Shown here in pieces: positions 4,113-48,327 of a stretch of DNA of 64,000 bases. A program made the translations under genes and the position numbers. Source of the DNA: Solibacillus sp. R5-41. GTDB lineage: Bacteria > Bacillota > Bacilli > Bacillales_A > Planococcaceae. The notes under the pieces were generated by a model that was not told where the DNA came from, did no database searches, and saw only the letters and a list, made by a program, of their open reading frames with translations. The stretch covers positions 1,108,001 through 1,172,000 of the forward strand of contig NZ_CP024123.1 in NCBI RefSeq assembly GCF_002736105.1. Direction: 5' to 3'. The stretch's first letter is position 1. Every line of letters starts with the position of its first letter.

Positions 4113-4304
4113 ATCAATTATGCCTCGACGAAATTGCGTCCAGATTTTGAATTGTGAGGTCAGCACTATGCAGGTCAGTTAGCCGTTGTCACATAGACGC
4201 GAAGAATTTAGGCTAACCTCCTCAATTAAATTCTGTTCAAAATCTGTGACATTCACCTAGGCTAATTTTTATTCAGTGGATATTTGAATACCCACTGAAT
4301 GAAA
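4113..4304 (-). repeat. dispersed element, family 1 copy B, inside the glyQS leader
   Basis: Diverged copy of the element found at 713 and 9627, oriented as + strand: the head palindrome is imperfect (TCAATTATGCCTCGACG), followed by GCGTCCAGATTTTGAATTGTG, then the internal ATGCAGGTCAGTTAGCCG block shared with the 9627 copy, and a terminal hairpin with arm ATTCAGTGG. It occupies almost the whole space between the T-box terminator and the glyQS ribosome-binding site. Confidence 0.8.
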
Positions 4305-9626: not shown

Positions 9627-9864
9627 TCAATTACGCCTCGGCGTAATTGCGTCAGGATTTTGAATTGTGTTTAGGCCTGCATGGTGCAGGTCAGTTAGCC
9701 GTTTGTCGCATAGATGCGACGACATAGGCTAACAACCTTATATTCATTCCTTTCATCCGCCGGGGGCTTATCTTCATTCAGTTGGCGTAAGGACGCTCAC
9801 TGAAAAGGCTATACTTTCATTCATCCTGCCACCTATAGAAGCAGGAGTCATTTGCTGAATGAAG
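9627..9864 (+). repeat. dispersed palindrome-headed element, family 1 copy C (longest)
   Basis: The most complete copy, 238 bp. Head: inverted repeat with arm CAATTACGCC (9628-9649), then GCGTCAGGATTTTGAATTGTG. Middle: CCTGCATGGTGCAGG hairpin, AGTTAGCCG ... AGGCTAAC stem and a TTCATTCAGT block. Tail: a hairpin with CCTGCCACCTATAGAAGCAGG, then TTGCTGAATGAAG. It lies between the sigA terminator and a membrane-protein gene whose start codon is about 30 bases past its end. Confidence 0.9.
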
Positions 9865-10449: not shown

Positions 10450-10644
10450 ATTTTTATTAAAGCTAATGATAGAACTATCGAATTTACCAATTCAACAACT
10501 GCCAAAACTTAAATATGATTGTATACCTTGATCGAAAAATATCCAGGCAACATGTAAATAGCCAACTATCCATGATAAAATTCAGATAGTTGGCTATTCG
10601 TCGTGCGAACCGGAATGTGCACAAATTTTTTGATTCGGATTTAC
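10450..10644 (+). mobile_element. IS66-family right-end remnant 1
   Basis: Translates in frame as a decayed TnpC C-terminus (LKLMIELSNLPIQQLPKL) with the terminal ProTrp-like motif disrupted by a TGA in place of Trp. Beyond the coding relic are about 110 bases with a hairpin (TAGCCAACTATC / GATAGTTGGCTA) and a terminal sequence that reads GTAAATCCGAATCAAAAAA on the other strand; GTAA is the usual start of IS66 terminal repeats. Its closest relative in the window is at 12240-12529, same orientation. Confidence 0.7.
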
Positions 10645-10649
10645 AGATA

Positions 10650-10684
10650 AAAAAACTACTAACAGTTGTTTACCGTTAGTAGTT
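10650..10684 (-). terminator. intrinsic terminator of purA
   Basis: On the minus strand AACTACTAAC and GTTAGTAGTT form a 10-base-pair stem followed by TTTTTTT, starting six bases after the purA stop. Confidence 0.85.
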
Positions 10685-10690
10685 CCAATC

Positions 10691-11977
10691 TTATTCCCAG
10701 ATAGCTTTAACGACGTTTGTCTGCTCACGAGCTGGCCCTACTGAGAAAGTCATTAAGTTTATTCCTGTTAGCTCTACAACACGTTCTACGTATTTACGAG
10801 CATTTTCTGGGAGTTCTTCTAATGTACGAATTCCAGTAATGTCTTCTGTCCAGCCTGGAAGTTCTTCATACATTGGTTCACAAGCTTCAATGATGTTTAA
10901 GCTTGCTGGATACTCGGTAATCACTTCACCGTTGTATTTATAAGCTGTACAGATTTTAACTGTATCTAAACCAGATAAAACGTCAATAGAGTTTAATGCT
11001 AAATCTGTAATCCCACTCACACGACGAGAGTGGCGAACTACTACTGAGTCAAACCAACCTACACGTCGTGGGCGCCCTGTCGTTGTTCCATATTCCCGAC
11101 CAACTTCACGGATTTGATGACCAACTTCATCGAATAGTTCCGTTGGAAATGGACCGTCACCTACACGAGAAGTGTATGCTTTACATACTCCAACAACACG
11201 AGAAACATGAGAGGGACCAATACCAGTACCAGTTGTTACACCACCTGCAACAGGATTTGAAGATGTAACAAATGGATAAGTTCCATGGTCAACATCTAAC
11301 ATAACTCCTTGTGCACCCTCAAATAACACACGGCCACCTTCATCTAAAACGTCATTTAATACTTTAGAAGTATCTGTTACGTATTTCGCGAGCTCTTGGC
11401 CATAGCCGTAGAATTCTTCGAAGATATCTTCAAATTTTAAGGCTTCCACTTCGTAGAATTTTTCGAAAAGACGGTTTTTCTTCTCTAAATTATCACGCAG
11501 TTTTTGTTCAAACACTTCACGATCAAGTAGGTCTGCAATACGGATTCCTATACGTGCAATTTTATCTTGATAGCACGGACCAATCCCTTTACAAGTTGTC
11601 CCAATTTTATTATCCCCAAGAGAAGCTTCGTCCACTTTATCTTGATAAATATGATATGGAAGAATTACATGAGCACGGTTTGAAATACGTAAGTTTGTTG
11701 TAACAATCCCACGTTCTTCCAAACCTTTTAGTTCTGATACGAGAGATTTTGGGTTGATAACCATCCCATTCCCCATCACTGAAGTTTTTTCTTTATAAAA
11801 GATACCTGATGGAATTAAATGTAATTTGTAAGTTTCATCGCCAATTTTGATTGTATGACCTGCGTTATCGCCGCCTGAAAATCGAGCGATTACATCTGCC
11901 TTTTTAGAAAGGAAGTCCGTAATTTTCCCTTTACCTTCGTCTCCCCATTGTGTTCCTACAACTACAACTGATGTCAT
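10691..11977 (-). CDS. purA: adenylosuccinate synthetase
   Basis: Converts IMP, aspartate and GTP to adenylosuccinate, the first step from IMP to AMP. The 428-residue length is standard. The N-terminal GTP-binding loop [11 protein letters not shown] (residues 8-18) with catalytic Asp and the later signature GIGPCYQDK and [11 protein letters not shown] are all present. The ATG has GGAGGTGC upstream. It is a single-gene unit with PurBox-like operator, SigA promoter and its own terminator; the two ends of the unit are bracketed by IS66 relics. Confidence 0.97.
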
Positions 11978-12132
11978 ATCAGCACCTCCGTTAGTCTCAA
12001 TTTTATTTATTCTTCTCCTTAATTGAGCGAAATATCCAATTATTTAAAAATGAATAACTCGTACAATGATCTTTTTAATTACGTATTAGTGTCTATTTAC
12101 TCAATAAATGTATCATTATATCGAATAGCGTT

Positions 12133-12162
12133 ATTGTAGCAGTGATTAACAGTAGAAGTCAA
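12133..12162 (-). promoter_or_regulatory. SigA-type promoter of purA
   Basis: On the minus strand TTGACT (complement 12157-12162) and TACAAT (complement 12133-12138) with an 18-base spacer, about 155 bases upstream of the purA start. Confidence 0.7.
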
Positions 12163-12175
12163 TGGAAAACAAGTT

Positions 12176-12222
12176 AAAACACGAACGAAATTATAAAATG
12201 GATAATTATCGTTCGTGTTATG
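12176..12222 (-). promoter_or_regulatory. PurR operator (two inverted PurBoxes) upstream of purA
   Basis: Two CGAACG-cored half sites, ACACGAACGAAAT at 12180-12192 and its inverse ATCGTTCGTGTTAT at 12208-12221, lie in divergent orientation just upstream of the purA -35 box. CGAAC-cored inverted PurBoxes upstream of the promoter are the known binding pattern of Bacillus PurR. Confidence 0.75.
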
Positions 12223-12239
12223 GTGGGAGGTAAATTAAG

Positions 12240-12529
12240 CGATTACTTGCATATAATGTTGCGAACCGTTGAATTCCTTTTTTATTTTCAAATGCGTGGT
12301 TTAACGCAACGGTCGGTAAATCGTATCGATACTTAGTGAAGCTACTGACAGAGCTACCGAATTTATCAATTCAACAACAGCCAGAACTTATAAATGATTT
12401 ATAGGCTGGGTTGGATGTAACAAATCCAGTCAACATGTGAAAAGTAGCGAACTAACCGAAAAAAATTTAGATAGCTAGCTATTCGCTTTGCCCACCGAAA
12501 AGAACGCATATTTTTTGTTTTGGGCTTAC
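12240..12529 (+). mobile_element. IS66-family right-end remnant 2
   Basis: From 12300 the frame reads FNATVGKSYRYLVKLLTELP and NLSIQQQPELINDL before a TAG, which matches the pattern of an IS66 TnpC C-terminus (YL..LLE.LPN....PE.L..LLPW). Non-coding right-end sequence follows with an imperfect hairpin around 12440-12480 and a terminal GTAAGCCCAAAACAAAAAA on the opposite strand, alignable with the end of the remnant at 10450-10644. The left part of the element is missing. Confidence 0.72.
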
Positions 12530-12645
12530 AATCGGATTGTTGATTTGTATATAAATTCTCTTTAAAACTTAATTTTTCTGTAAAAATACATATATTTCGT
12601 ATAGAATGAAAGGTGATACATGAGTGGGAGAAAGGGTGGGGTGAC

Positions 12646-13788
12646 ATGAATTTTGACTTAACAGCGGAACAACAAATGTTGCAAAAAATGATGCGGGAAT
12701 TTTCAGATGAAGTTGTAGCACCAGGGGCAATTGAGCGTGATAAGACAAAAGAATTTCCATTACCTATTTTTAAGGAATTATCAAAAATGGGGATAATGGG
12801 CTTACCATTTCCAGAAGCTTACGGGGGTGCGGGGGCAGATACCATTAGTTTTGCAATTGTTACGGAACAGTTAAGCCGTGTTTGTGCTTCTACGGGCATT
12901 ACGTATTCTGCACATATTTCTTTAGGTGGGGCACCACTTTATTTATTTGGGACAGAGGAGCAAAAGCAAAAGTATCTTGTCCCGATTTGTACGGGAGAAT
13001 CCTTTGGAGCATTTGGTTTAACAGAGCCGAATGCTGGATCTGATGCAGGTGGCACGGAAACAACGGCTGTTTTAGAAAATGGGCAGTATACGATTAATGG
13101 CTCCAAAGTGTTTATTACAAATGCAAGCTATGCCAAACATTTAGCGTTAACAGCAATTACGAATCGACAAAATAATGAAAAAGAAATTAGTGCGATTATC
13201 GTGCCAACCGATGTAGCAGGTTTCCAAATTAAATCCGATTATGAAAAAATGGGCTTAAATGCTTCGAATACAACGGAGCTGCTACTTCAAAATGTGACAG
13301 TGCAAGAAGAAAATCTTTTAGGCAAGCGTGGAAACGGCTTTAAGCAATTTTTAACGACATTGGATGGTGGGCGCATCGGAATTGCGGCGATGGCGGTTGG
13401 TATTGCGCAAGGTGCTTTAAATAAAGCTGTTCAATATGCAAAAGTACGCAAACAATTTGGCAAAACTTTGTCACAGTTTCAAGCGACGCAGTTTAAATTA
13501 GCTGATATGGAAGTGAAAATTGAAATCGCGAGAAATTATGTTTATAAAGCGGCTTGGTTAAAAGATCAAGGACGTCCATTTGGCAAGGAAGCGGCGATTG
13601 CCAAATACTATGCATCTGAAATGGCGATGGAAGTGTGCGATGAAGCAATCCAAATTCATGGAGGATATGGGTATATGAAAGAGTATGAAGTGGAACGTTA
13701 TATGCGTGATGCTAAATTATTAGAGATAGGAGAGGGAACTTCAGAAGTCCAAAAAATGGTTATTGCAAGACATATATTGCAACGTTAA
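12646..13788 (+). CDS. acyl-CoA dehydrogenase (short/branched-chain type)
   Basis: FAD enzyme of acyl-CoA alpha,beta-dehydrogenation. The 380-residue chain has the family signature GAFGLTEPNAGSDAGG near residue 125, the flavin-contact region, and the catalytic glutamate in LLEIGEGTSEVQ near residue 365; the FAD motif QIHGGYGYMKEYEVER precedes it. The ATG at 12646 is preferred because GGGTGGGG sits directly upstream; a longer frame from 12613 would bury that site. No electron-transfer flavoprotein or beta-oxidation gene is adjacent, so substrate (butyryl or branched chain) is not determined. Confidence 0.92.
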   Translation: MNFDLTAEQQMLQKMMREFSDEVVAPGAIERDKTKEFPLPIFKELSKMGIMGLPFPEAYGGAGADTISFAIVTEQLSRVCASTGITYSAHISLGGAPLYLFGTEEQKQKYLVPICTGESFGAFGLTEPNAGSDAGGTETTAVLENGQYTINGSKVFITNASYAKHLALTAITNRQNNEKEISAIIVPTDVAGFQIKSDYEKMGLNASNTTELLLQNVTVQEENLLGKRGNGFKQFLTTLDGGRIGIAAMAVGIAQGALNKAVQYAKVRKQFGKTLSQFQATQFKLADMEVKIEIARNYVYKAAWLKDQGRPFGKEAAIAKYYASEMAMEVCDEAIQIHGGYGYMKEYEVERYMRDAKLLEIGEGTSEVQKMVIARHILQR

Positions 13789-27531: not shown

Positions 27532-27906
27532 TTGATTTAAAATGAGTAAATCCTATATAGACACCTAGAATTATTAGCAGGGCGGCAATTCTGATATCTG
27601 GTAACTTATCATAACGATAAGCGCGTGGGAAACCTTTCCCACCTCAAATATTTTTTAGTTAAATCACTATATCTATATTCAGTTTATCAGGTGTTTTTCT
27701 GGAAAAGACAGATAGTGTAAATTGGCTCAAAATTGGGTTGCGATATACTAACGTAGAAATTCATTATATTTCTCATAAATAAAAAAACGTCCTTACCTTA
27801 AATAGATTTCTGTAAATCTGTTTAACAGTAAAGGACGTTTTTATTTATATATCTTCAAGAGGATTTTTTCTGAGGATTAAATACAATAAAATATTTTCTT
27901 TCCTAC
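27532..27906. other. intergenic stretch with a second terminator
   Basis: No gene recognised. At 27782-27843 AAAAACGTCCTTAC and GTAAAGGACGTTTTT form a long-looped hairpin flanked by A and T runs, which can terminate the minus-strand qox operon about 60 bases after qoxD. The 250 bases between the two terminators hold only short frames. Confidence 0.6.
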
Positions 27907-36796: not shown

Positions 36797-37618
36797 ATCT
36801 TTTAATCAAATATCGAATTTCAATAAAAACAGGCAGTAATAACAAAGGCTAAACCTTTAATCGTTACTGCCTAATTCAGGCGTTATGTCTACTAAAGGTG
36901 AATAACATGACTATTAAAGCTCTTTAACTTCGTTATACCCGTTTTCCATCATCGTAATCTTTCCTTTAATTAATTCTTCCTGCAGATTATATGATTTTGA
37001 CGTTTTATTTTCCATCCCTAGGGATGACGAATGAAAGGAACTACAAGAGAAGATAAAAAAATCGTCAGGTACTTATGTATTAAGGCTTATAATATAAACA
37101 TTTTCATTTTGAACAAAGCCAGTTGCTTAATTTACTCGCCCAAACTTTTTTCGAAAATTTACCTGCAATCTCACAGACAGCCGTATGTAGAGTAACAAAC
37201 CGGGTCACAATATAGAGCTCTTGAGCAAACTTTATAAAGTTTGCTCAAGAGCTCTATTTAATCAGCGACTTTTATAATTGGATAGTAGTGATAAGTAATT
37301 TAATTATTCTGATAAAAATTAAAATTCTGATATACGACTTTTAAAGAGGGTATTTAATTAGTTAATTATGCATGGTTCACGAAGGAGTTAAAATAATAAA
37401 GTAATAATCAAGGGTAATTGGACCTATATAAAATATGTATATTATGGTTTTTTAAAGTAATAAGTGACTATATGCACTCAAAAAATAATAGGTTTAATGG
37501 TATAGTATATAATCATTAGAATTATATGGATATATTTTTAGGTAGTAGGTAAAAAAATGAAATAGAGTTAAATAAAATAAAGATTAAAAAATTTATTATA
37601 AAATATAGGAGGAAAAAA
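36797..37618. other. long intergenic region before the chemoreceptor
   Basis: No gene longer than about 35 residues. At 36830-36872 AGGCAGTAA and TTACTGCCT form a weak terminator after the SOS operon. On the minus strand a 33-residue frame, 36914-37015 (MENKTSKSYNLQEELIKGKI), has no ribosome-binding site. A perfect 21-base inverted repeat lies at 37212-37257. The last 250 bases are strongly AT-rich and end in AGGAGG before the receptor gene. Confidence 0.5.
37212..37257. repeat. perfect 21-bp inverted repeat
   Basis: Arms ATAGAGCTCTTGAGCAAACTT and its exact complement separated by TATA. A short T-rich tail (TTTAATC) follows. No coding gene is directly upstream, so it is either the terminator of an unrecognised transcript or a structural element. 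Confidence 0.85.
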
Positions 37619-39364
37619 ATGTTTCGTAACCTTAAATTTTTTACAAAAAATATACTAGTTACTATTTTAAGTATTTTGATTGTAGGTGTAATTCTTATTG
37701 GAGTAAGTTATTTTATACAAGGTAGTTTATTAAAGGAACAACTTAGAGATCAAACAAGAGGAATTTCAGAATCATGGTACGAAAAAATTGAAGGTAACGA
37801 AGTTGAAAAATTAATGCAAGATGAAGATACTCAAAGTGAAATACATAAAAAATATACAGATATGTTCAACAAAATGAGTGAATACAACCCTATTGTAGCT
37901 CAAGGTTATATTTATGGTGTTGAATTAAGTGGTGAAAAAAAGAATGAAACGTCTTTAATTTCTTTTGATGATGCAATTTGGGAAATGTTTAAAGGGGAAG
38001 GTTTTGAACCTGGTGTTTTATATGAGCAGCCTGAAGTAGTCGTACAAGCTTTAGAAGTATTAAAAGAAACAGGTAAACCGGAATTCACAGAAATATACAA
38101 AGATGATTATGGTACATGGCTAACATTTATGTATCCAATTTTTAATGCGCAAAAGGATTTAATTGCCTATTATGCAATTGATGTAGATGCCTCAAGTGTT
38201 GGTGAAGGGCAAGCAGGACTATTAAAATGGTCTTCTATTTTATTAGTTGTATTATTAATGTTGGTTATAATCCTGCAGTATTTTATCGTTAAATCTCAAT
38301 TAAAACCTTTAAACTATTTATTAAAAGGAATTAATAAAGCAAGTAAAGGTGAGTTAATAGCTAATTTACCAGAAGGAAGAGATGAATTAGGTACTGTTAA
38401 TGCAAGATTTAATGAAATGATCACATCTTTAAGTAATATGGTTAATGGTGTAACGAATACGGCCATAAAGGTAAAAGATGATTCAAGACAATTAGAAAAA
38501 GCATTCAAGTCAACGTATGATTCTTCTGAAAAAATTACGAATTCTATTAATGGTATGAAGACGAACTTAAAAGGGCAAGAAACTTCGATTGAAGAAGCGG
38601 CTCGTTCGATGGAAGATATGTCTATTCAAGTCCAGAACATTGCTACAGATGTAGCGGAAGTTTATAAATATGCCGAAGAAGTTACTTCATATTCAGAAAA
38701 TGGTAACGATATCACGTCTGAGGTTGCGAATCGAATGGAGTCTATCGTTGATGATGTAGCAAATTCAAATAAAAATATTGAGAATTTAGTGGAATTATCG
38801 GATGAAATTGGTCAAATTTTAGAAGTTATTACTGATATTTCGAGTGCTACGAATTTATTAGCTTTAAATGCGAGTATTGAAGCGGCTCGAGCAGGAGAGC
38901 ATGGTAAAGGCTTTGCTGTAGTAGCGCAAGAAGTCAAAAAACTTTCAGAGCAGTCTGCTAAATCTACTGAAGGTATTCGCGAGCTTGTCAGCCGTGTTCG
39001 AGAAGCGGTAAAAGAAGCGGAATCCTTTATGGAGAATATTAAAAAGGGTGTTGATGGCGGTAAAGCATCCACTCAAAAAACAAATGAAATGTTTAATAAA
39101 ATTTATGAATTCAACAAAGAGATTAATATGAAATTACAATCCGTGTCGTTAGCAACGGAAGAGATTTCTGCAGGCGTAGAAGAATCAGCTGCTATGATTA
39201 TTACATTATCTTCAAATGCTAAAGAAATTGTAGATGGGTATCAAGGCATTGTAGATAATGTTGAAAATCAGCAAAGTACTTTAAGTGACATCAATAGTAT
39301 GTCTGAGCATTTAAATATGACATCTGAAGAATTAGAAGAGGTAGTGAAAAAGTTTAAAAATTAG
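37619..39364 (+). CDS. methyl-accepting chemotaxis protein
   Basis: A 581-residue transmembrane chemoreceptor. Layout: TM1 (about residues 12-33), an extracellular sensor of about 170 residues ([16 protein letters not shown] through [12 protein letters not shown], sCache/PAS-like in length), TM2 (about 206-225), HAMP (226-280), then a long coiled-coil signalling domain with the conserved tip [16 protein letters not shown] (about 413-428) and [18 protein letters not shown] 8 bases upstream of ATG. It is 39 bases upstream of the A-T-R reductase gene on the same strand with no terminator between, so they are probably cotranscribed. Confidence 0.92.
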
Positions 39365-39403
39365 CACGGTTATTTTGATTATTTGGAAGAGGTTAAAAAT
39401 TAA

Positions 39404-42361
39404 ATGGAAACTATTTTAAGTAAATTTAAACAAGTTGTTTCAAAGCAAGGAAATTCTATTGCATTAAAAGAAAGAAATCGACAATTAACTTATTTGGATT
39501 TAGATAGTGAATCGAATAAAATTGCTAACTATTTAATTTCAAATGGTCTTAAAACTGGAGATTTTGTTGCAATCTATTTAAAAAGAAGTATTGATACGGT
39601 CATTTCATTACTAGGAATTATAAAGGCTGGGGGAGTTTATGTTTCTTTAGATCCTACACATCCAAATGATCGAAATAACTATATCATTGAAGATATTAAT
39701 ACTTCATTTATTATAAGCAACATGGATTCGTTACAAAAAACAAAAGGGTTACAGTTAAAAACTTCGATTAATATTTTACTTTTAGAAGATTTAAAGACGA
39801 ATTTTGTACCAGAACGCTTTGAATATGTAAGTGACAGTATAGATGATGTATGCTATACAATCTTTACATCAGGTACTACTGGTAAGCCAAAAGGTACGCT
39901 AATTCGCCAACAAGGTGTTGTTAATTTAGTTCATTACATGCAAGAAAATTGGCAAGTAAATGAGCACGATAAAATTTTACAATTTGCTACCTATAGTTTT
40001 GATGCATCTGTATTAGATACTTTTCTGTCACTTTTGACAGGTTCTTTATTGTATTTAATTGATGATGAAGAAAGAATGGCTGAAAGTAATTTTTTAGATG
40101 TTGTGAAAAATGAAGAAATAACAGTGATTCCAGTACTGCCAACAGTTTTTTTTAATCGAATTGTAAATCATCTAACTGAAGATAACTCGAATTTATTCGC
40201 CTCTGTCAAACTAGTTGGTGTAGGTGGAGAATTATTAACGGGTGATTTAGCGAGAAAGTTTAAATCGAGTTTTTGTGGTGAGACGAGATTCTTTAATTTA
40301 TATGGACCAACTGAAATCACAGTAATGGCAACTGCATATGAAGTACCTAAAGATTTGCCTAGTGATGTATATAGTGTTCCAATCGGGAAGCAACTACCTG
40401 GGAACAAAATTTACATAGTGAATGAAGACGGCAAAGCATGTGAAGAAAATGAAGTAGGAGAACTTTGGATAGCATCTGTCGGTATTTCTTTAGGTTATTT
40501 AAATAATAGCGAAAAAACGGAAGAAGTATTTATCAAAAATCCATTTGATCCTGATCTTTATGAGGGAATTGTATATAGATCAGGGGACCTCGTGAAAAAA
40601 TTAAAAGATGGTAATGTTGAATTTGTTTCTAGAATGGATACTCAAGTGAAAATTCGTGGGCATCGCATTGAAATTGCTGAAATTGAAACAAAAATGAATG
40701 AAATTGAAAGCGTTGAAAATGTGGTTGTTGTAGTAGAAAAAGAGGACGGCGACCAAATTTTGAAAGCCTTTTTTACATCAAACAAACAAGTTGACCTTAC
40801 TTCGATAATCGATGCCTTGAAAACAGATTTACCTAGTTACATGCTGCCTACAAAATTGCGACAACTAGCTGACATTCCTTTTGCCCCGACTGGTAAAGTA
40901 GATAGAAAGGCTTTAGAAAAAATCGAAGCTGAACGTGTGTCACTTTCGCGGTCGGAACAATTCATTGCGCCACGTAATAAGGTGGAAGAAGATATTGTAG
41001 ATGTTTGGAAAAAAGTACTGAAAATTGATGAGATTAGTGTCATTGATAATCTATTTGAAATTGGTGGTCACTCTTTAAAAGTGATTGAAATTTTATCGCA
41101 CTTAAAACAAACGTACCCAGCTTTAACGATTAAAGATTTCTTCGATTTGAAAACGGTAGAAAATTTAGCAAATAAGGTTTTAAACTCGTCAGATGTATTA
41201 GAAGAACAGTTTAATGGTGAGTTTACACATTTGGCCGAATACCCAAAAATGCCAGTGAATGAAGAATTACTAGAAGCACAAACAATTTTTGTAACGGGCT
41301 CGACAGGTTTCTTAGGTAGTCATATAGCGAATAAATTGATTGAAGAAGGAAAAAACGTCATTTTGCTTGTACGGGGGGAAACTGCAGAAAACCGTATAAA
41401 AGATACGATGACCAACTATTTTAATAAAGAATTAAGTACAAAAATTACGATTGTAAATGGTGATTTGACGAAGGCGTATTTTGGTCTTCCAAAAGAAGCA
41501 TTTATGCAATTAGCAAGAAAAATTGATGCGATTATTCATTCAGCAGCTGATGTAAGGCATTTCGGTGATAGAGAACATTTTGAAAAAGTGAATGTTCAAG
41601 GAACGAAAAATATTTTTGAGTTAGTCGATTTTAATTCGAAAATTGCCTTCCACCATATTTCTACTGTGGGCGTTATACAAGATTTATTAGCAGAGGGAAA
41701 ATGGAATTTATTAAAGGAAGCGACTGAAATACCTGAACATTTACAGCTAGAGAGTGTTTATACAGATACAAAAATGTTAGCTGAAAAATGGATATTAGAT
41801 AAAGCAAAAGAAGGTAAACAAGTTTTCATTTACCGAATGGGTAATTTAACAGGTCGATATAGCGACGGGCGTTTCCAAAGTAATATTAATGAAAATTCAT
41901 TTTATCGAATGATGAAGCTGATGATCATGGTTAATAAAGCACCTAAAGTACAATGGATGGTGGACTTCACACCAATTGATTTTGCAGCAGAAGTCGTTGT
42001 GAAATCTTTACTGACAGCAAAGCATTTTGGGCGTGTCTATCATGTATGTCACCCAAACCCTATTACGTTTGAGCAGTTTATTTCAATTTTAAATAAGTTG
42101 GATTTAGATATAGAAATGGTAGAAAAAGCATATTATGATGAATATGTTTTAAGTGGAAACGTGAATGAAGAAATAAAGAACCTAGCGGTTGCTCAGCTAG
42201 ATGGTGATGGTGCTATTGATTCACCTGCTATATTTGATAGTAAAAATACGATGAAGCATTTAGGCATGAGTCAATTACCTCTATTAGAAAAAGAGTATAT
42301 TAGAAAGTTAATTGATTATGCAATTACAGAAGGCTTTATTAAAGTAGCAGTTAAAATGTAA
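39404..42361 (+). CDS. NRPS-like adenylation-thiolation-reductase (A-T-R) enzyme
   Basis: A 985-residue stand-alone carboxylic acid reductase of NRPS type. Adenylation domain: A3 TSGTTGKPKG (155-164), A4 FDASV with Asp200, A5 NLYGPTE (298-304), A8 GHRIEIAEIE (419-428), A10 PTGKVDRKAL (495-504, Lys498). Thiolation: DNLFEIGGHSLK, carrier Ser557. Reductase: NAD(P) motif TGSTGFLG (631-638), HISTVG and the YTDTK catalytic Tyr786/Lys790. It would activate an acid, load it on phosphopantetheine and release aldehyde (or alcohol). Asp200 suggests an alpha-amino acid substrate. No condensation domain. Confidence 0.93.
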   Translation: METILSKFKQVVSKQGNSIALKERNRQLTYLDLDSESNKIANYLISNGLKTGDFVAIYLKRSIDTVISLLGIIKAGGVYVSLDPTHPNDRNNYIIEDINTSFIISNMDSLQKTKGLQLKTSINILLLEDLKTNFVPERFEYVSDSIDDVCYTIFTSGTTGKPKGTLIRQQGVVNLVHYMQENWQVNEHDKILQFATYSFDASVLDTFLSLLTGSLLYLIDDEERMAESNFLDVVKNEEITVIPVLPTVFFNRIVNHLTEDNSNLFASVKLVGVGGELLTGDLARKFKSSFCGETRFFNLYGPTEITVMATAYEVPKDLPSDVYSVPIGKQLPGNKIYIVNEDGKACEENEVGELWIASVGISLGYLNNSEKTEEVFIKNPFDPDLYEGIVYRSGDLVKKLKDGNVEFVSRMDTQVKIRGHRIEIAEIETKMNEIESVENVVVVVEKEDGDQILKAFFTSNKQVDLTSIIDALKTDLPSYMLPTKLRQLADIPFAPTGKVDRKALEKIEAERVSLSRSEQFIAPRNKVEEDIVDVWKKVLKIDEISVIDNLFEIGGHSLKVIEILSHLKQTYPALTIKDFFDLKTVENLANKVLNSSDVLEEQFNGEFTHLAEYPKMPVNEELLEAQTIFVTGSTGFLGSHIANKLIEEGKNVILLVRGETAENRIKDTMTNYFNKELSTKITIVNGDLTKAYFGLPKEAFMQLARKIDAIIHSAADVRHFGDREHFEKVNVQGTKNIFELVDFNSKIAFHHISTVGVIQDLLAEGKWNLLKEATEIPEHLQLESVYTDTKMLAEKWILDKAKEGKQVFIYRMGNLTGRYSDGRFQSNINENSFYRMMKLMIMVNKAPKVQWMVDFTPIDFAAEVVVKSLLTAKHFGRVYHVCHPNPITFEQFISILNKLDLDIEMVEKAYYDEYVLSGNVNEEIKNLAVAQLDGDGAIDSPAIFDSKNTMKHLGMSQLPLLEKEYIRKLIDYAITEGFIKVAVKM

Positions 42362-42369
42362 AAAATGAG

Positions 42370-42402
42370 GTAAGGATATATTTTTATATCCTTGCTTTTT
42401 TT
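42370..42402 (+). terminator. terminator or attenuator between A-T-R gene and transferase gene
   Basis: AAGGATATA and TATATCCTT form a 9-base-pair stem with a 4-base loop, followed by GCTTTTTTT. It sits 9 bases after the A-T-R stop and before the transferase ribosome-binding site, so the transferase would depend on read-through or an own start. Confidence 0.75.
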
Positions 42403-42418
42403 ATAGGAGAAATTATTT

Positions 42419-42925
42419 TTGGTGAAATTATATGTAGTGAAAAATTGGTTGGAAAAAGTGAATAGGAATGAACCTAGAGCAAATTGGTCGATTATTTTAA
42501 TAAAAAAAATAATGGGAAATATGGATATACAAAAATATGCAAGCGGTAAGCCATTTATTTTGAATGAAAAGCAATTTATCAATTGGTCTCATACAGATGA
42601 ATATTTAGTCATTGCGTTAAGTGAATTAGGTCAGGTTGGCGTAGACATAGAAATTAGTCATTTAGCATATGACGAGCAGCTATACGGTTGGGTTTTACAT
42701 AAAGAAGAAAAAAGTAAAATAGAGCAAGGTCGATTGTTTTCTGAAGTTTGGACTAGAAAAGAAGCCATTTTAAAATATACTGGTGAAGGAATTAGCGACA
42801 ATATGTGTGAGTTAAACAGTTATAAGATGATGGATTTGAATGTTACTACTATGTTTTTTAGTGGATTATGTATAAGTGTATGTAGCGAGTATCAAGAAAG
42901 TATTAAGCTCTTTCAAATTTCATAA
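42419..42925 (+). CDS. Sfp-type 4'-phosphopantetheinyl transferase (short)
   Basis: Transfers phosphopantetheine from CoA to the carrier Ser of the adjacent A-T-R enzyme. The 168-residue protein retains the core motifs: SGKPF (about 42-46), NWSHTDEYLVIALS (about 55-68), the Mg site GVDIE (about 74-78) and WTRKEAILKYTGEGI (about 110-124). It is shorter than Sfp (about 220 residues), mainly in the N- and C-terminal parts. TTG 42419 has AGGAG upstream; GTG 42422 is an alternative. Location next to the only carrier-protein gene in the window makes the pairing likely. Confidence 0.85.
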   Translation: MVKLYVVKNWLEKVNRNEPRANWSIILIKKIMGNMDIQKYASGKPFILNEKQFINWSHTDEYLVIALSELGQVGVDIEISHLAYDEQLYGWVLHKEEKSKIEQGRLFSEVWTRKEAILKYTGEGISDNMCELNSYKMMDLNVTTMFFSGLCISVCSEYQESIKLFQIS

Positions 42926-44842: not shown

Positions 44843-46606
44843 ATGAAAAATATAAACTCTAAGGAAATAAGTTTGATTAAAATTTATATATGGGCTATTT
44901 CCTTTATAAGGCCTTATTTAAGTAAAGTTTTACTATTAATCATTTGTGGATTAATTATCTCTGTAAGCGAACTAATAATTCCAAAAATGTTTGGATATTT
45001 TATAGACGATGTTTTAAAAAATAAGAATATAAAATTATTTGCTTATTGTTTGTTCGCTATATTTTTAATATTATTACTAAAATTAATCGCTACAGCTTCG
45101 AAAGAATATTTGCAACGATACATTCAGGAAAATAGTGTGAGAGATTTACAGTGGAGTATTGTAACAAAATTACGAACTCTTGGTGTTAGTTATCTTGAAA
45201 AGAACTCTACTGGGAGAATACTCGCCCTAGTGAACACTGAAGTTGCAGCATTACAAGAATTATATAGAAGATATTTCCCTGAAATAATACAACATATTTT
45301 ATTTGTTTCAATTTCTGTTTATTTCATGTTAGATATTAGTCTTTATTTAAGTGTAGCTATAATACCTTGCTTTTCCCTCTACTATTTATTTGGTCCAAAG
45401 ATTGAAAAGAAAGCTTCGAATATTGCAAAAAAACTAGCGGATAGTCAAATAAATTTAGGACAAAAATATTATGAAAGTGTCTCTTTACTCAAAGAATTGA
45501 ATGTGTTTAATAGCTTTGAATGGGATTTAAATAAAACATTAAAAGAGGTAGAGAATAATACAAATTTATTTACAAAGCGGTATTGGTATGCCTATTTAAG
45601 AGGATCGATTCGTCGTTTTACTTATTACTTTGGAGCTATTATTCTAATTTTATTAGGTTGTTTATTAATAAAAGAAGAAACGATATCTGCAGGGGAATTT
45701 GTTTCATTTTTACTATTATATTTAGTTACAATGCATAAATTAACATCAATAATTACTCTTTTAACGGAGCAAAAAATGCTAATGTTTCAAGCGAGTAAAC
45801 TATATGAATTTACCCATTTAGAACCAACTATTATTGAACAGGAAGGTGCTGTACATTTAAATAAGATAGAAGGAAATATCAATTTTGAAAATGTCTCCTT
45901 TTGTTATACTCCTGATAATCCTATATTAAAAAATTTAAGTTTTAATATTAAGTCTGGTGAGAAAATAGCATTTGTTGGAGAGTCAGGATGTGGGAAATCG
46001 ACAATTACCAAGTTGATTACACGTTTTTATGATTGTAATAGTGGGGAAATTTCAATTGATAGCAATCCAATTAACTCCCTGAGTTTGGGTACAATTAGAC
46101 AATCAATTGGCATTGTCTTTCAAGATGTTTATATTTTTGGATCTACCATTAAAGAGAATATCTTATTTGGAAATCCATTCGCATCAGAAGAAGAGATAAT
46201 TGAAGCATCAAAAGCAGCTCACCTGCATGACTATATTATGGAATTACCTGATCAATATAATACTAAAGTTGATGAAAAAGGGGTAACTTTATCAGGTGGA
46301 CTCAAACAACGCGTGGGTTTGGCAAGACTATTTATAATGAATCCATCAATAGTATTATTGGATGAACCAACATCTGCTTTAGATAATATAACTGAAAATC
46401 ATATTCAAAAATCTTTAGATAATTTTCTAATGGGTAAGACTGTAATAACCATTGCTCACAGATTAAGTACGATTCGAAATTATGATCATATATACGTACT
46501 TGATAATGGCAAGATTACTGAATCTGGTTCACATGAGCATTTACTAGCAAAGAATGGTCTTTATAAGAAATTTATAATACAAACGAAAGAAGCTGGGCTC
46601 TTATGA
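44843..46606 (+). CDS. ABC exporter half-transporter, first of pair
   Basis: A 587-residue TMD-NBD half exporter (type IV fold). Six membrane helices occupy about residues 15-310; the ATPase domain has Walker A GESGCGKST (about 378), Q loop FQDVYIF, signature LSGGLKQR (about 482), Walker B VLLDEPTSALD and H-loop IAHRLSTI. The signature has L in place of the usual Q/E after LSGG. No peptidase C39 domain is fused. Start ATG sits immediately after a repeat relic and lacks a good ribosome-binding site. Overlaps the second half-transporter gene by four bases, suggesting a heterodimer. Confidence 0.92.
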   Translation: MKNINSKEISLIKIYIWAISFIRPYLSKVLLLIICGLIISVSELIIPKMFGYFIDDVLKNKNIKLFAYCLFAIFLILLLKLIATASKEYLQRYIQENSVRDLQWSIVTKLRTLGVSYLEKNSTGRILALVNTEVAALQELYRRYFPEIIQHILFVSISVYFMLDISLYLSVAIIPCFSLYYLFGPKIEKKASNIAKKLADSQINLGQKYYESVSLLKELNVFNSFEWDLNKTLKEVENNTNLFTKRYWYAYLRGSIRRFTYYFGAIILILLGCLLIKEETISAGEFVSFLLLYLVTMHKLTSIITLLTEQKMLMFQASKLYEFTHLEPTIIEQEGAVHLNKIEGNINFENVSFCYTPDNPILKNLSFNIKSGEKIAFVGESGCGKSTITKLITRFYDCNSGEISIDSNPINSLSLGTIRQSIGIVFQDVYIFGSTIKENILFGNPFASEEEIIEASKAAHLHDYIMELPDQYNTKVDEKGVTLSGGLKQRVGLARLFIMNPSIVLLDEPTSALDNITENHIQKSLDNFLMGKTVITIAHRLSTIRNYDHIYVLDNGKITESGSHEHLLAKNGLYKKFIIQTKEAGLL

Positions 46607-48327
46607 AGAATATGTATTGGATTTGGTATTATATTAAAAATCAAAAGTTATTATATTTTTCTTCTATTTTTTTATTAATAATTGAATCAATAAGCTTTGT
46701 TTATTCAATCACTTTGCAACAATATATTATTGATCAAATAATTATGGGGTCAGATTTTGGTGGTATTTGGATATATGTAATATTAATAGCTTTATGTTAT
46801 TTAATATTCATAATATTATTTGTTGTTAATCCTTATATTCAAAGTAAAATTCATGGTCGTGTTAAATATCAATTAGTTGAGCAAGGTTTATCGACTTTAT
46901 ATAGTACACCAATCAATATAGTTCAGAAAGAACGAAATGCTCGCTATGTGCATTTTTTTTCGAATGAAATACCTATTGTAGCAAGATTAATAGGAGAAGA
47001 TATTTCGGATATTATAAAACACTTAGTAAGTACTATTATTATTTGTGTTTTATTTTTAAAGGCATCTCCTATACTTTTCTTATCGATTCTTACTTTGTCT
47101 CTTTTCTATATAAAATCGGGAAAAAAACTATCAAATAAGCAAAAAAAAGTTTGGAAAGATATTCAAGATAAAAAATCTTCACTACTAATTGTATTAGAAG
47201 AATGTATAACTTCTACTCGTGATGTGATAGCAAATAATCGAGGTGATTGGGAAAACACGAGATATCAAAACAGTTTTATTAAATACTTTAAAAGTGTCAT
47301 GTTGGAAGGAAAGCTAAAAATAAAAATGGTATTCTCACTAGAATCTATAACTTCCATTGCGCAGATTATTGTAATTGGCTATGGTGGATACCTTGTCGTT
47401 AAAGGGTCCATGACAATTGGTTTATTAGTTGTTATTTACCAACTTACATTAGAACTGCTCCATTCATTTGTAAAAGTATACAATTTAATATTTTCATTTT
47501 CAGGCAAGATGGCTTCAGTTGAAAATATTAGCAATTGGTTTAATACAAAACCAAATAAAACAAAGAATACTAAAACGATTTCCTCAATTGAATCATTAAA
47601 AATTAATAATATTTCTTTTCGGTATAATTCAGGTGAAAAATTTATATTAAGAAATTTTTCTTTAGATATACCAATTGGAAAGAAAATAGCTATAGTTGGA
47701 CCTAGTGGTAGTGGGAAGTCAACTATTGGAAGTTTACTTGAAAGTTTATATGAGGTTGAGGAGGGGAGTATTCAGTCAAATAATATTAATATTACTGATA
47801 TTTCAAAAGATATTTGGAAATCGAAAGTCAGTATTGTTTTTCAAGATCCATACATATTTCCAGGTACTATAAGGGATAATTTATTACTGGGATATAAACA
47901 AATTACTGATACTCAAATGATCAGTTTAGCCAAAGCAATGTGTATTGATGATATGATTCAAAAATTGCCAGATAAGTATGATAGTTCACTAGGGGAGCGT
48001 GGAATAACGATTTCAGGCGGTGAAAAACAAAGGTTAGCAATAGTTCGTGCTTTAATTAGAGATCCAGAGGTATTAATTTTAGATGAGTCTACATCGGCAT
48101 TAGATGTAAACACAGAAAAAATAATTCAAAAAAATCTTGCCATGATTAGAGAAAATAAAACGACAATTATTATTGCTCATCGACTTTCTACCATTAAAGA
48201 TTCAGACATCATCTTTGTTATCGATAAGGGGAAAATTGTAGAACAAGGTTGTCATTCTGAATTATTACAAAATAAATCATTGTATTATGAATTAGTGATG
48301 AATGAGATGAAAGATACTGATTATTGA
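46603..48327 (+). CDS. ABC exporter half-transporter, second of pair
   Basis: A 574-residue partner of the preceding half-transporter, with six membrane helices and an NBD containing Walker A GPSGSGKST (about 365), signature ISGGEKQRLAI (about 469), Walker B VLILDESTSALD and H-loop IAHRLSTIKD. Catalytic Glu is present in both partners, so neither site is overtly degenerate. ATG 46603 lies inside the end of the upstream gene, implying coupled translation. Heterodimeric exporters of this type move drugs, lipids or peptides; no precursor peptide gene was found nearby. Confidence 0.92.
   Translation: MKNMYWIWYYIKNQKLLYFSSIFLLIIESISFVYSITLQQYIIDQIIMGSDFGGIWIYVILIALCYLIFIILFVVNPYIQSKIHGRVKYQLVEQGLSTLYSTPINIVQKERNARYVHFFSNEIPIVARLIGEDISDIIKHLVSTIIICVLFLKASPILFLSILTLSLFYIKSGKKLSNKQKKVWKDIQDKKSSLLIVLEECITSTRDVIANNRGDWENTRYQNSFIKYFKSVMLEGKLKIKMVFSLESITSIAQIIVIGYGGYLVVKGSMTIGLLVVIYQLTLELLHSFVKVYNLIFSFSGKMASVENISNWFNTKPNKTKNTKTISSIESLKINNISFRYNSGEKFILRNFSLDIPIGKKIAIVGPSGSGKSTIGSLLESLYEVEEGSIQSNNINITDISKDIWKSKVSIVFQDPYIFPGTIRDNLLLGYKQITDTQMISLAKAMCIDDMIQKLPDKYDSSLGERGITISGGEKQRLAIVRALIRDPEVLILDESTSALDVNTEKIIQKNLAMIRENKTTIIIAHRLSTIKDSDIIFVIDKGKIVEQGCHSELLQNKSLYYELVMNEMKDTDY

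Follow-up and report, generated by a model that had tools for sequence, protein, structure and literature searches.

In Solibacillus sp. R5-41, a chemoreceptor gene (MCP) stands directly upstream of a gene for a stand-alone adenylation-thiolation-reductase (A-T-R) enzyme, and comparison with other genomes shows that this pairing is real and widespread within Bacilli. We examined a 64,000-nucleotide stretch of the genome (contig NZ_CP024123.1, positions 1,108,001 to 1,172,000 of the forward strand; hereafter the window), in which three genes lie in a row on the same strand and encode, in order, a chemoreceptor with two transmembrane segments, the A-T-R enzyme and a Sfp-type transferase. The individual parts are known and the combination is new; no title or abstract start among the listed open-access PubMed Central matches deals with an MCP/A-T-R gene pair. 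An earlier note on this DNA gave an interpretation that the comparison supports, but undersold the pairing. A lack of the receptor beside A-T-R genes of related genomes was to have counted against that interpretation, and the opposite is found: an MCP adjoins the enzyme at 36 of 36 mapped loci of the host family and at 33 of 35 strong stand-alone loci of other Bacilli families. The three open reading frames (ORFs) lie where the earlier note had placed them, with the motifs of all three intact. Their features, and the evidence for each, are as follows.

37619..39364, plus strand: transmembrane chemoreceptor (MCP), 581 amino acids, member of the A-T-R-linked receptor family (ORF, domains, motifs)
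37724..38227, plus strand: predicted extracytoplasmic Cache/PAS-like sensor domain, residues 36-203 of the MCP (AlphaFold model and structural matches)
39404..42361, plus strand: stand-alone A-T-R enzyme, 985 amino acids (ORF, domains, motifs, alignment)
39425..40501, plus strand: adenylation domain core, residues 8-366 of the enzyme, with its pocket (domain match, pocket reading)
40991..41173, plus strand: thiolation domain, residues 530-590 of the enzyme, with the GGHSL serine (domain match, motif, alignment)
41291..41995, plus strand: thioester reductase domain, residues 630-864 of the enzyme, NAD_binding_4 (domain match, motif, alignment)
42367..42398, plus strand: terminator-like hairpin with T run between the A-T-R and transferase genes (terminator scan, relatives by eye)
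42419..42925, plus strand: Sfp-type 4'-phosphopantetheinyl transferase, 168 amino acids, start TTG (42419) or GTG (42422) (ORF, PF01648, motifs)

The receptor-enzyme gene pair across Bacilli

A survey of 200 genomes of the host family yielded 38 with an enzyme match at 1e-120 or better, one of which (G106, locus L063) is 8% contaminated. Two genomes, G135 and G169, have long multi-module matches alone; the 36 stand-alone enzymes, window included, were mapped with all ORFs of at least 90 amino acids, labels being given only to relatives of the window proteins. The MCP is the neighboring upstream ORF at every one of these loci, at a distance of 0-296 bases, on the same strand at 34 and divergently at two (L083 and L084). 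It also adjoins all four further enzymes mapped from an order-level search (L191-L194), in which a fifth enzyme, that of G201, lay outside the mapped set. Within the host genus the enzyme is present in eight of 16 genomes, in one at just 38% identity, and Solibacillus merdavium and S. faecavium carry it at 75% and 74% identity, respectively.

Farther afield, we ran a profile of 14 enzymes against 398 Bacilli genomes, 74 of which match at 1e-180. Forty of the 74 form a strong stand-alone set (at least 1189 bits, open frame of up to 1310 amino acids), and 35 of these lie outside the host family. The 33 loci among them with an MCP directly upstream on the same strand come from ten genera and seven families, with 16 contributed by one genus (g44). 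The other 34 genomes hold lower-scoring or multi-module enzymes, of which 11 were mapped (L184, L188, L189, L196-L201, L203 and L251); no MCP stands beside L196-L201 and L203. These seven belong to a set of 22 control nonribosomal peptide synthetase (NRPS) and R-domain loci, picked from available sequences, none of which has an MCP in its flanks (1.5 kb for 15 loci, longer for seven). At L185, the A-T-R gene (10489-13005, minus strand) is receptor-less and adjoins a gene that by eye resembles spoIIE, and in L183, from the same genus, the receptor lies between both.

The pairing extends to plasmids. At 1e-8, a search of 72,556 plasmid records with the window sensor domain gives just two matches, each immediately upstream of one of the two top-scoring A-T-R matches. 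Paenibacillus cellulositrophicus NZ_CP045296.1 has the annotated order transferase, MCP, NRPS; in P. cellulosilyticus NZ_CP054613.1, unannotated there, our profiles find the MCP and then the enzyme, with no transferase within the 15 kb examined. In a survey of 398 genomes of the phylum, 12 match at an E value of 1e-220 or better and six of these lie outside Bacilli; the 1.5-kb flanks of seven loci from these six genomes (frames of 1440-1476 amino acids) hold no MCP. Since the 4.28-Mb, single-contig host genome has about 24 MCP genes (26 MCP-signal matches), we estimate chance adjacency to be of the order of a percent. The gene order is conserved far outside the genus, and the pairing is therefore not a product of chance.

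Trees of the enzyme and the receptor, built from 32 dereplicated pairs, have 17 of 29 splits in common. The two trees contain 24 and 22 splits with support of at least 0.9, of which 16 are common, including groupings that cross family boundaries. Both place the window clade with L171 of another family, apart from most enzymes of its own family, and in Solibacillus genome G008 (L036) both genes belong to the other type of cassette. What conflict remains is found mostly within a single clade and among deep branches, and A-domain distances correlate with those of the MCP signaling domain at 0.964. These comparisons point to histories that are largely shared. Much common history would also be expected if the two genes merely hitch-hiked, with no functional link, on one mobile or ancestral block. 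Against such a passive block, the genes beyond the cassette vary between clades, though they are common within some, while the pair stays. It persists, moreover, despite varied layouts, with the MCP divergent in L083 and L084 or downstream in L188 and L251, and with the transferase first in P. cellulositrophicus. In the window the pair is under purifying selection, with ratios of nonsynonymous to synonymous substitution against the nearest relative, L030, of 0.10 for the MCP and 0.12 for the A-T-R gene (0.18 for the transferase gene). We regard hitch-hiking as the least credible of the explanations considered here, and as very improbable.

Enzyme, transferase and receptor

The window enzyme comprises AMP-binding, PP-binding and NAD_binding_4 domains and displays the motifs FTSGTTG, YGPTE, PTGKVDR, GGHSL and TGSTGFLG. 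When it is aligned with 13 other sequences, residues K498, S557, T754, Y786 and K790 prove invariant across all 14. The domain search gives no match to a Condensation domain, and the enzyme, with A, T and R domains and their catalytic motifs on one chain, is a stand-alone A-T-R (ATRed) NRPS. It is also the only full A-T-R match in the host genome, the others being confined to either the A or the R portion and scoring no more than 94.5 bits. Its best NCBIfam match is the last module of the aureusimine synthetase AusA, covering profile positions 1434-2367 of 2373 at 571.8 bits against a cut-off of 2500. AusA differs as a two-module A-T-C-A-T-R protein of about 2373 positions, whereas the window enzyme has one module; the aureusimine system is not known to have a linked receptor. 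Enzymes of other families keep an N-terminal part of a condensation domain, above the Pfam cut-off in four of the five tested and below it in the fifth, which suggests that the A-T-R enzymes descended from a C-A-T-R module. In the L172, L175, L176 and L177 enzymes, the N terminus preceding the A domain matches part of the Condensation domain, and the window enzyme gives no such match.

The A-domain pocket had been read by eye as D-A-L-P-G-G-L-V-M-K with the amino-group Asp present, and we reproduced this code; position 278 is P by ungapped count and V in one gapped alignment. With the amino-group Asp retained and the rest of the pocket apolar, the substrate is likely a hydrophobic α-amino acid. 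Linked enzymes carry 14 different nine-position codes, two with one position unread (L182 and L202 yielded none), and these span D-P-T-A-S-G-V-V-L to D-G-W-T-A-A-A-V-C. The latter resembles the phenylalanine code of PheA, D-A-W-T-I-A-A-I-C, and the L175 enzyme is an example with a phenylalanine-like pocket.

The transferase matches PF01648 and carries the Sfp-type signatures (GxDIE and KEA) as GVDIE and WTRKEA. NCBIfam matches to AcpT (48.5 bits) and AusB (46.4 bits) are both far below cut-off. Only two PF01648 proteins occur in the host genome, one of AcpS size (a 126-amino-acid frame) and the cassette transferase, which is thus its sole Sfp-type enzyme; the idea of a private transferase holds for this genome. 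The three genes had also been taken for one compact unit. That view fits the MCP and A-T-R genes, whose 39-base gap has a plausible ribosome site by eye and no terminator-like site reported by the terminator scan. It needs qualifying for the transferase gene, which is preceded by a 14-pair hairpin and T run and was called downstream in only 28 of the 36 family cassettes (L083 has another, recognized by eye). The hairpin makes it probable that the transferase gene is expressed less strongly or has a separate start. By eye, the hairpin is almost unchanged in L030 (an 88% relative), the corresponding gaps of L031, L033, L034 and L035 have other hairpins with a T run, and the long gap of L032 has several hairpins. 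The MCP/A-T-R gap of L031-L034 contains a hairpin with no clear T run, also by eye, which perhaps sets unequal expression of the two genes. Short stretches upstream of the MCP, at about 37400-37560, are similar by eye in the window and L030 and may be a control site. Elsewhere in the window, Rfam matches mark a skipping-rope RNA (27570-27652, minus strand) and two Bacillaceae-1 RNAs (4160-4227 and 9676-9743, both minus strand).

The receptor has two hydrophobic segments (about residues 5-39 and about residues 197-229), a HAMP domain and an MCPsignal domain with a 16-residue tip of the standard type, and is a transmembrane chemoreceptor by these features. An AlphaFold model of residues 1-255 (mean pLDDT 84.9) predicts a PAS/Cache-like domain on a long helix that resembles the sensor domains of WalK, KinD, CitA, DcuS and Tlp3 in structure comparison. 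The PAS-like fold and the long N-terminal helix are those of a Cache fold, and the model of a second sequence subtype (mean pLDDT 83.2) arranges its elements in the same order. No Pfam Cache family matches the window sensor above cut-off (dCache_1, 15.1 bits against 45). Of 30 family sensors, six match dCache_1 at E values of 1 or better (best 0.0018) and two match MCP-like_PDC_1 (best 4.2e-6), and a search of PDB sequences with the sensor profile gives a best E value of only 0.13. When the seven Solibacillus sequences of the window clade are left out of the profile, the window MCP still reaches 151 bits, against 38 for the next-best MCP of the host genome; on the full profile, of which they are part, the listed linked receptors reach 174-222 bits. 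By sequence, the A-T-R-linked receptors are one family with a Cache-like sensor domain that Pfam hardly assigns.

Sensor residues Y160 and D188 occur in 32 of 32 linked receptors and in three of three receptors linked to a decarboxylase (see below), and also in 12 and 13, respectively, of 15 other relatives. They recall the Tyr/Asp ligand contacts of amine receptors; contacts named in the literature are Y177/D208 of McpX and D173 of PctA (PMC11245519). Since most distant relatives carry both residues too, the likeness is a lead only. Known ligands of Cache domains include amines, amino acids and carboxylates (PMC9040839, PMC12415202), a range that does not decide the ligand here.

The host genome has four CheW-domain matches, one of them inside a 692-amino-acid frame of CheA size. 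Together with the standard signaling tip and the predicted outer sensor domain, these CheW/CheA-type proteins speak against a non-chemotactic role, such as control of aggregation or development via CheA, and against a product that feeds the receptor from inside the cell. A probably cytosolic location of the enzyme would fit sensing from within. We consider this pair of alternatives very unlikely.

The receptor family and a second enzyme partner

The linkage is also evident from the receptor side. At 1e-8 the sensor profile, scored on up to nine candidates per genome, has matches in 71 of the 398 Bacilli genomes; 41 genomes reach at least 179 bits, and 38 of these fall within the 40 enzyme-holding genomes. 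Both enzyme and sensor thus occur in 38 genomes, the enzyme alone in two, the sensor alone in three and neither in 355 (Fisher p 4e-47, with kinship ignored, the lists read by hand and the cut-offs set after the lists were seen).

At three loci from three other families, L242 (3495-6970), L243 (5940-9519) and L244 (3364-7655), the receptor stands tail-to-tail with a protein of 546-555 amino acids resembling pyridoxal phosphate (PLP)-dependent decarboxylases, and no enzyme matches at 1e-180. The three proteins match PLP amino-acid decarboxylase models, with Pfam Pyridoxal_deC found in the one tested, and L242 and L243 have a sodium-dependent transporter beyond the decarboxylase. The sensor is found at 1e-30 in two of 41 genomes of one of these families and in one of two of another, and the decarboxylase link amounts to the three loci. 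In the receptor tree (node support not printed) the three receptors form one group nested among enzyme-linked receptors, and a single change of partner, from reductase to decarboxylase, would be the simplest reading of that position. Because a decarboxylase adjoins the receptor where a strong enzyme match is absent, the common partner appears to be an amino-acid-altering enzyme. We hold the decarboxylase partner to be the most informative clue to function: the amine that it would form retains the amino group and side chain of the amino acid, as does an amino alcohol or aldehyde.

Additional receptors occur in genus g44, whose 16 genomes have second copies scoring 168-175 bits. At L252 (3858-7030), a distant receptor relative with no enzyme is followed by an amino-acid permease gene on the same strand.

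Proposed function of the pair

We propose, with about even confidence for and against, that the two genes form a conserved synthase-chemoreceptor cassette in which the enzyme makes a diffusible compound derived from an amino acid and the receptor steers cells by that compound. The transferase would load phosphopantetheine onto the T domain, and the A domain would activate a single amino acid, probably a hydrophobic one. The R domain would then release an amino aldehyde or, after a second reduction, an amino alcohol; pairing of the aldehyde may in turn give a dihydropyrazine and, from it, a pyrazine. The small product would leave the cell, and the MCP would bind this product or a derivative in its Cache-like outer domain and signal to CheA/CheW, so that cells move relative to a compound made by themselves and their kin. 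Enzyme and receptor genes are linked across lineages, and if the enzyme is the signal synthase, as proposed, the cassette would resemble a quorum-sensing synthase/receptor pair. An ABC transporter pair at 44843-48327 (two adjacent half-genes, followed by an alpha/beta hydrolase) was considered as product exporter and dropped, as it does not stand beside the cassette in L030.

We take the receptor to read the enzyme product or a derivative because the gene linkage can be joined with precedents from known systems. ATRed of Xenorhabdus indica, a lone A-T-R enzyme with the same three domains in one protein as the window enzyme, makes a pyrazine, and an amino aldehyde was proposed as intermediate from the isolated product; its substrate is phenylalanine, the window pocket code differs, and the part of that report consulted here mentions no chemoreceptor (PMC7586950). 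Pyrazines and related compounds have been described as autoinducers (PMC11480411). In Pseudomonas, autoinducers are products of small NRPS clusters (PMC10194917, PMC8473136), and a virulence-factor enzyme of this genus is cited as having the A-T-R order (PMC7586950). The Pvf and mgo clusters share with the window unit a small NRPS, which in their case is needed for an extracellular autoinducer, but the Pvf cluster has an N-oxygenase and acts on gene expression, whereas the window unit has no oxygenase and an MCP as partner (PMC10194917, PMC8473136). E. coli shows taxis to autoinducer-2 (AI-2) of its own making (PMC5056481), the kind of response to a self-produced molecule that we propose here. 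The window differs in presenting a linked gene pair, from a family with diverse enzyme pockets. The AI-2 synthase and chemoreceptor of E. coli, in contrast, are not known to form a gene pair. Support for product sensing further comes from the retention of the receptor across the 14 pocket codes of the linked enzymes.

The main rival to product sensing is that the receptor senses, outside the cell, the amino acid used as substrate or some other amino nutrient, with the enzyme acting in downstream processing and cells gathering at the precursor. Cache-type domains often bind amino acids, and the structural matches of the sensor include Tlp3 with isoleucine. The transporter at two of the three decarboxylase-linked loci would likewise fit uptake and use of an amino acid. 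However, amino-acid receptors of Bacilli are not known to have a biosynthetic enzyme as their usual fixed neighbor. A private transferase and reductive release would suit a dedicated product better than catabolism, and the sensor family stands apart from the remaining MCPs of the host genome (151 against 38 bits). We judge substrate sensing to be improbable, though it is the alternative to be taken most seriously. The product might instead be toxic or inhibitory, for example a reactive aldehyde or a protease inhibitor, and the receptor would keep producers away from harmful levels or on their own territory. R domains release electrophilic aldehydes, which often inhibit proteases (PMC7586950), and the taxis could have either sign. 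No immunity or detoxification gene was recognized beside the pair, where most neighbors are unannotated, and we rate this explanation as distinctly unlikely.

Several observations weigh against product sensing by a dedicated pair. Some concern the linkage itself: the stand-alone enzymes L185 and L187 have no adjoining MCP, and none stands beside the lower-scoring L189 or the long multi-module L087 (G169). The two-module L184 has a divergent MCP of another receptor family, and L188 and L251 have weaker members of the receptor family (122 and 124 bits) on the downstream side. Conversely, the two mapped second copies of g44, L245 (4901-6667) and L246, have no enzyme neighbor, although these genomes also hold the cassette, and weaker receptor relatives elsewhere stand without an enzyme. 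The decarboxylase link would fit sensing of the substrate amino acid as well. Once the signaling domain is taken into account, sensor and A-domain distances show no extra correlation (partial r -0.23), which speaks against tight co-evolution around a ligand unless saturation hides it. A comparison by pocket code is confounded with distance, as same-code and different-code pairs share no distance bin used. No exporter was identified beside the pair, again among mostly unannotated neighbors. Upstream of 58 linked MCP genes, the best scores in a consensus scan for a sigma-D-type promoter do not exceed those of shuffled sequence, so co-regulation of these genes with motility is not shown.

With somewhat less assurance than for the cassette itself, we envisage a Bacilli-wide form of chemotactic communication. 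Lineage-specific A-T-R signals, in many dialects corresponding to the 14 pocket codes, would be read by co-inherited private chemoreceptors and would let cells navigate toward or away from kin. One branch would have swapped the synthase for a decarboxylase, and genomes with the receptor only may eavesdrop. If this is correct, chemotaxis in many soil Bacilli would be partly social, with a receptor gene-linked to the enzyme that makes its ligand. The enzyme pocket would then predict the ligand, providing a direct route to the ligands of receptors that largely escape Pfam assignment. The cassettes would also give access to many small signals and offer a test of joint change in synthase and receptor specificity.

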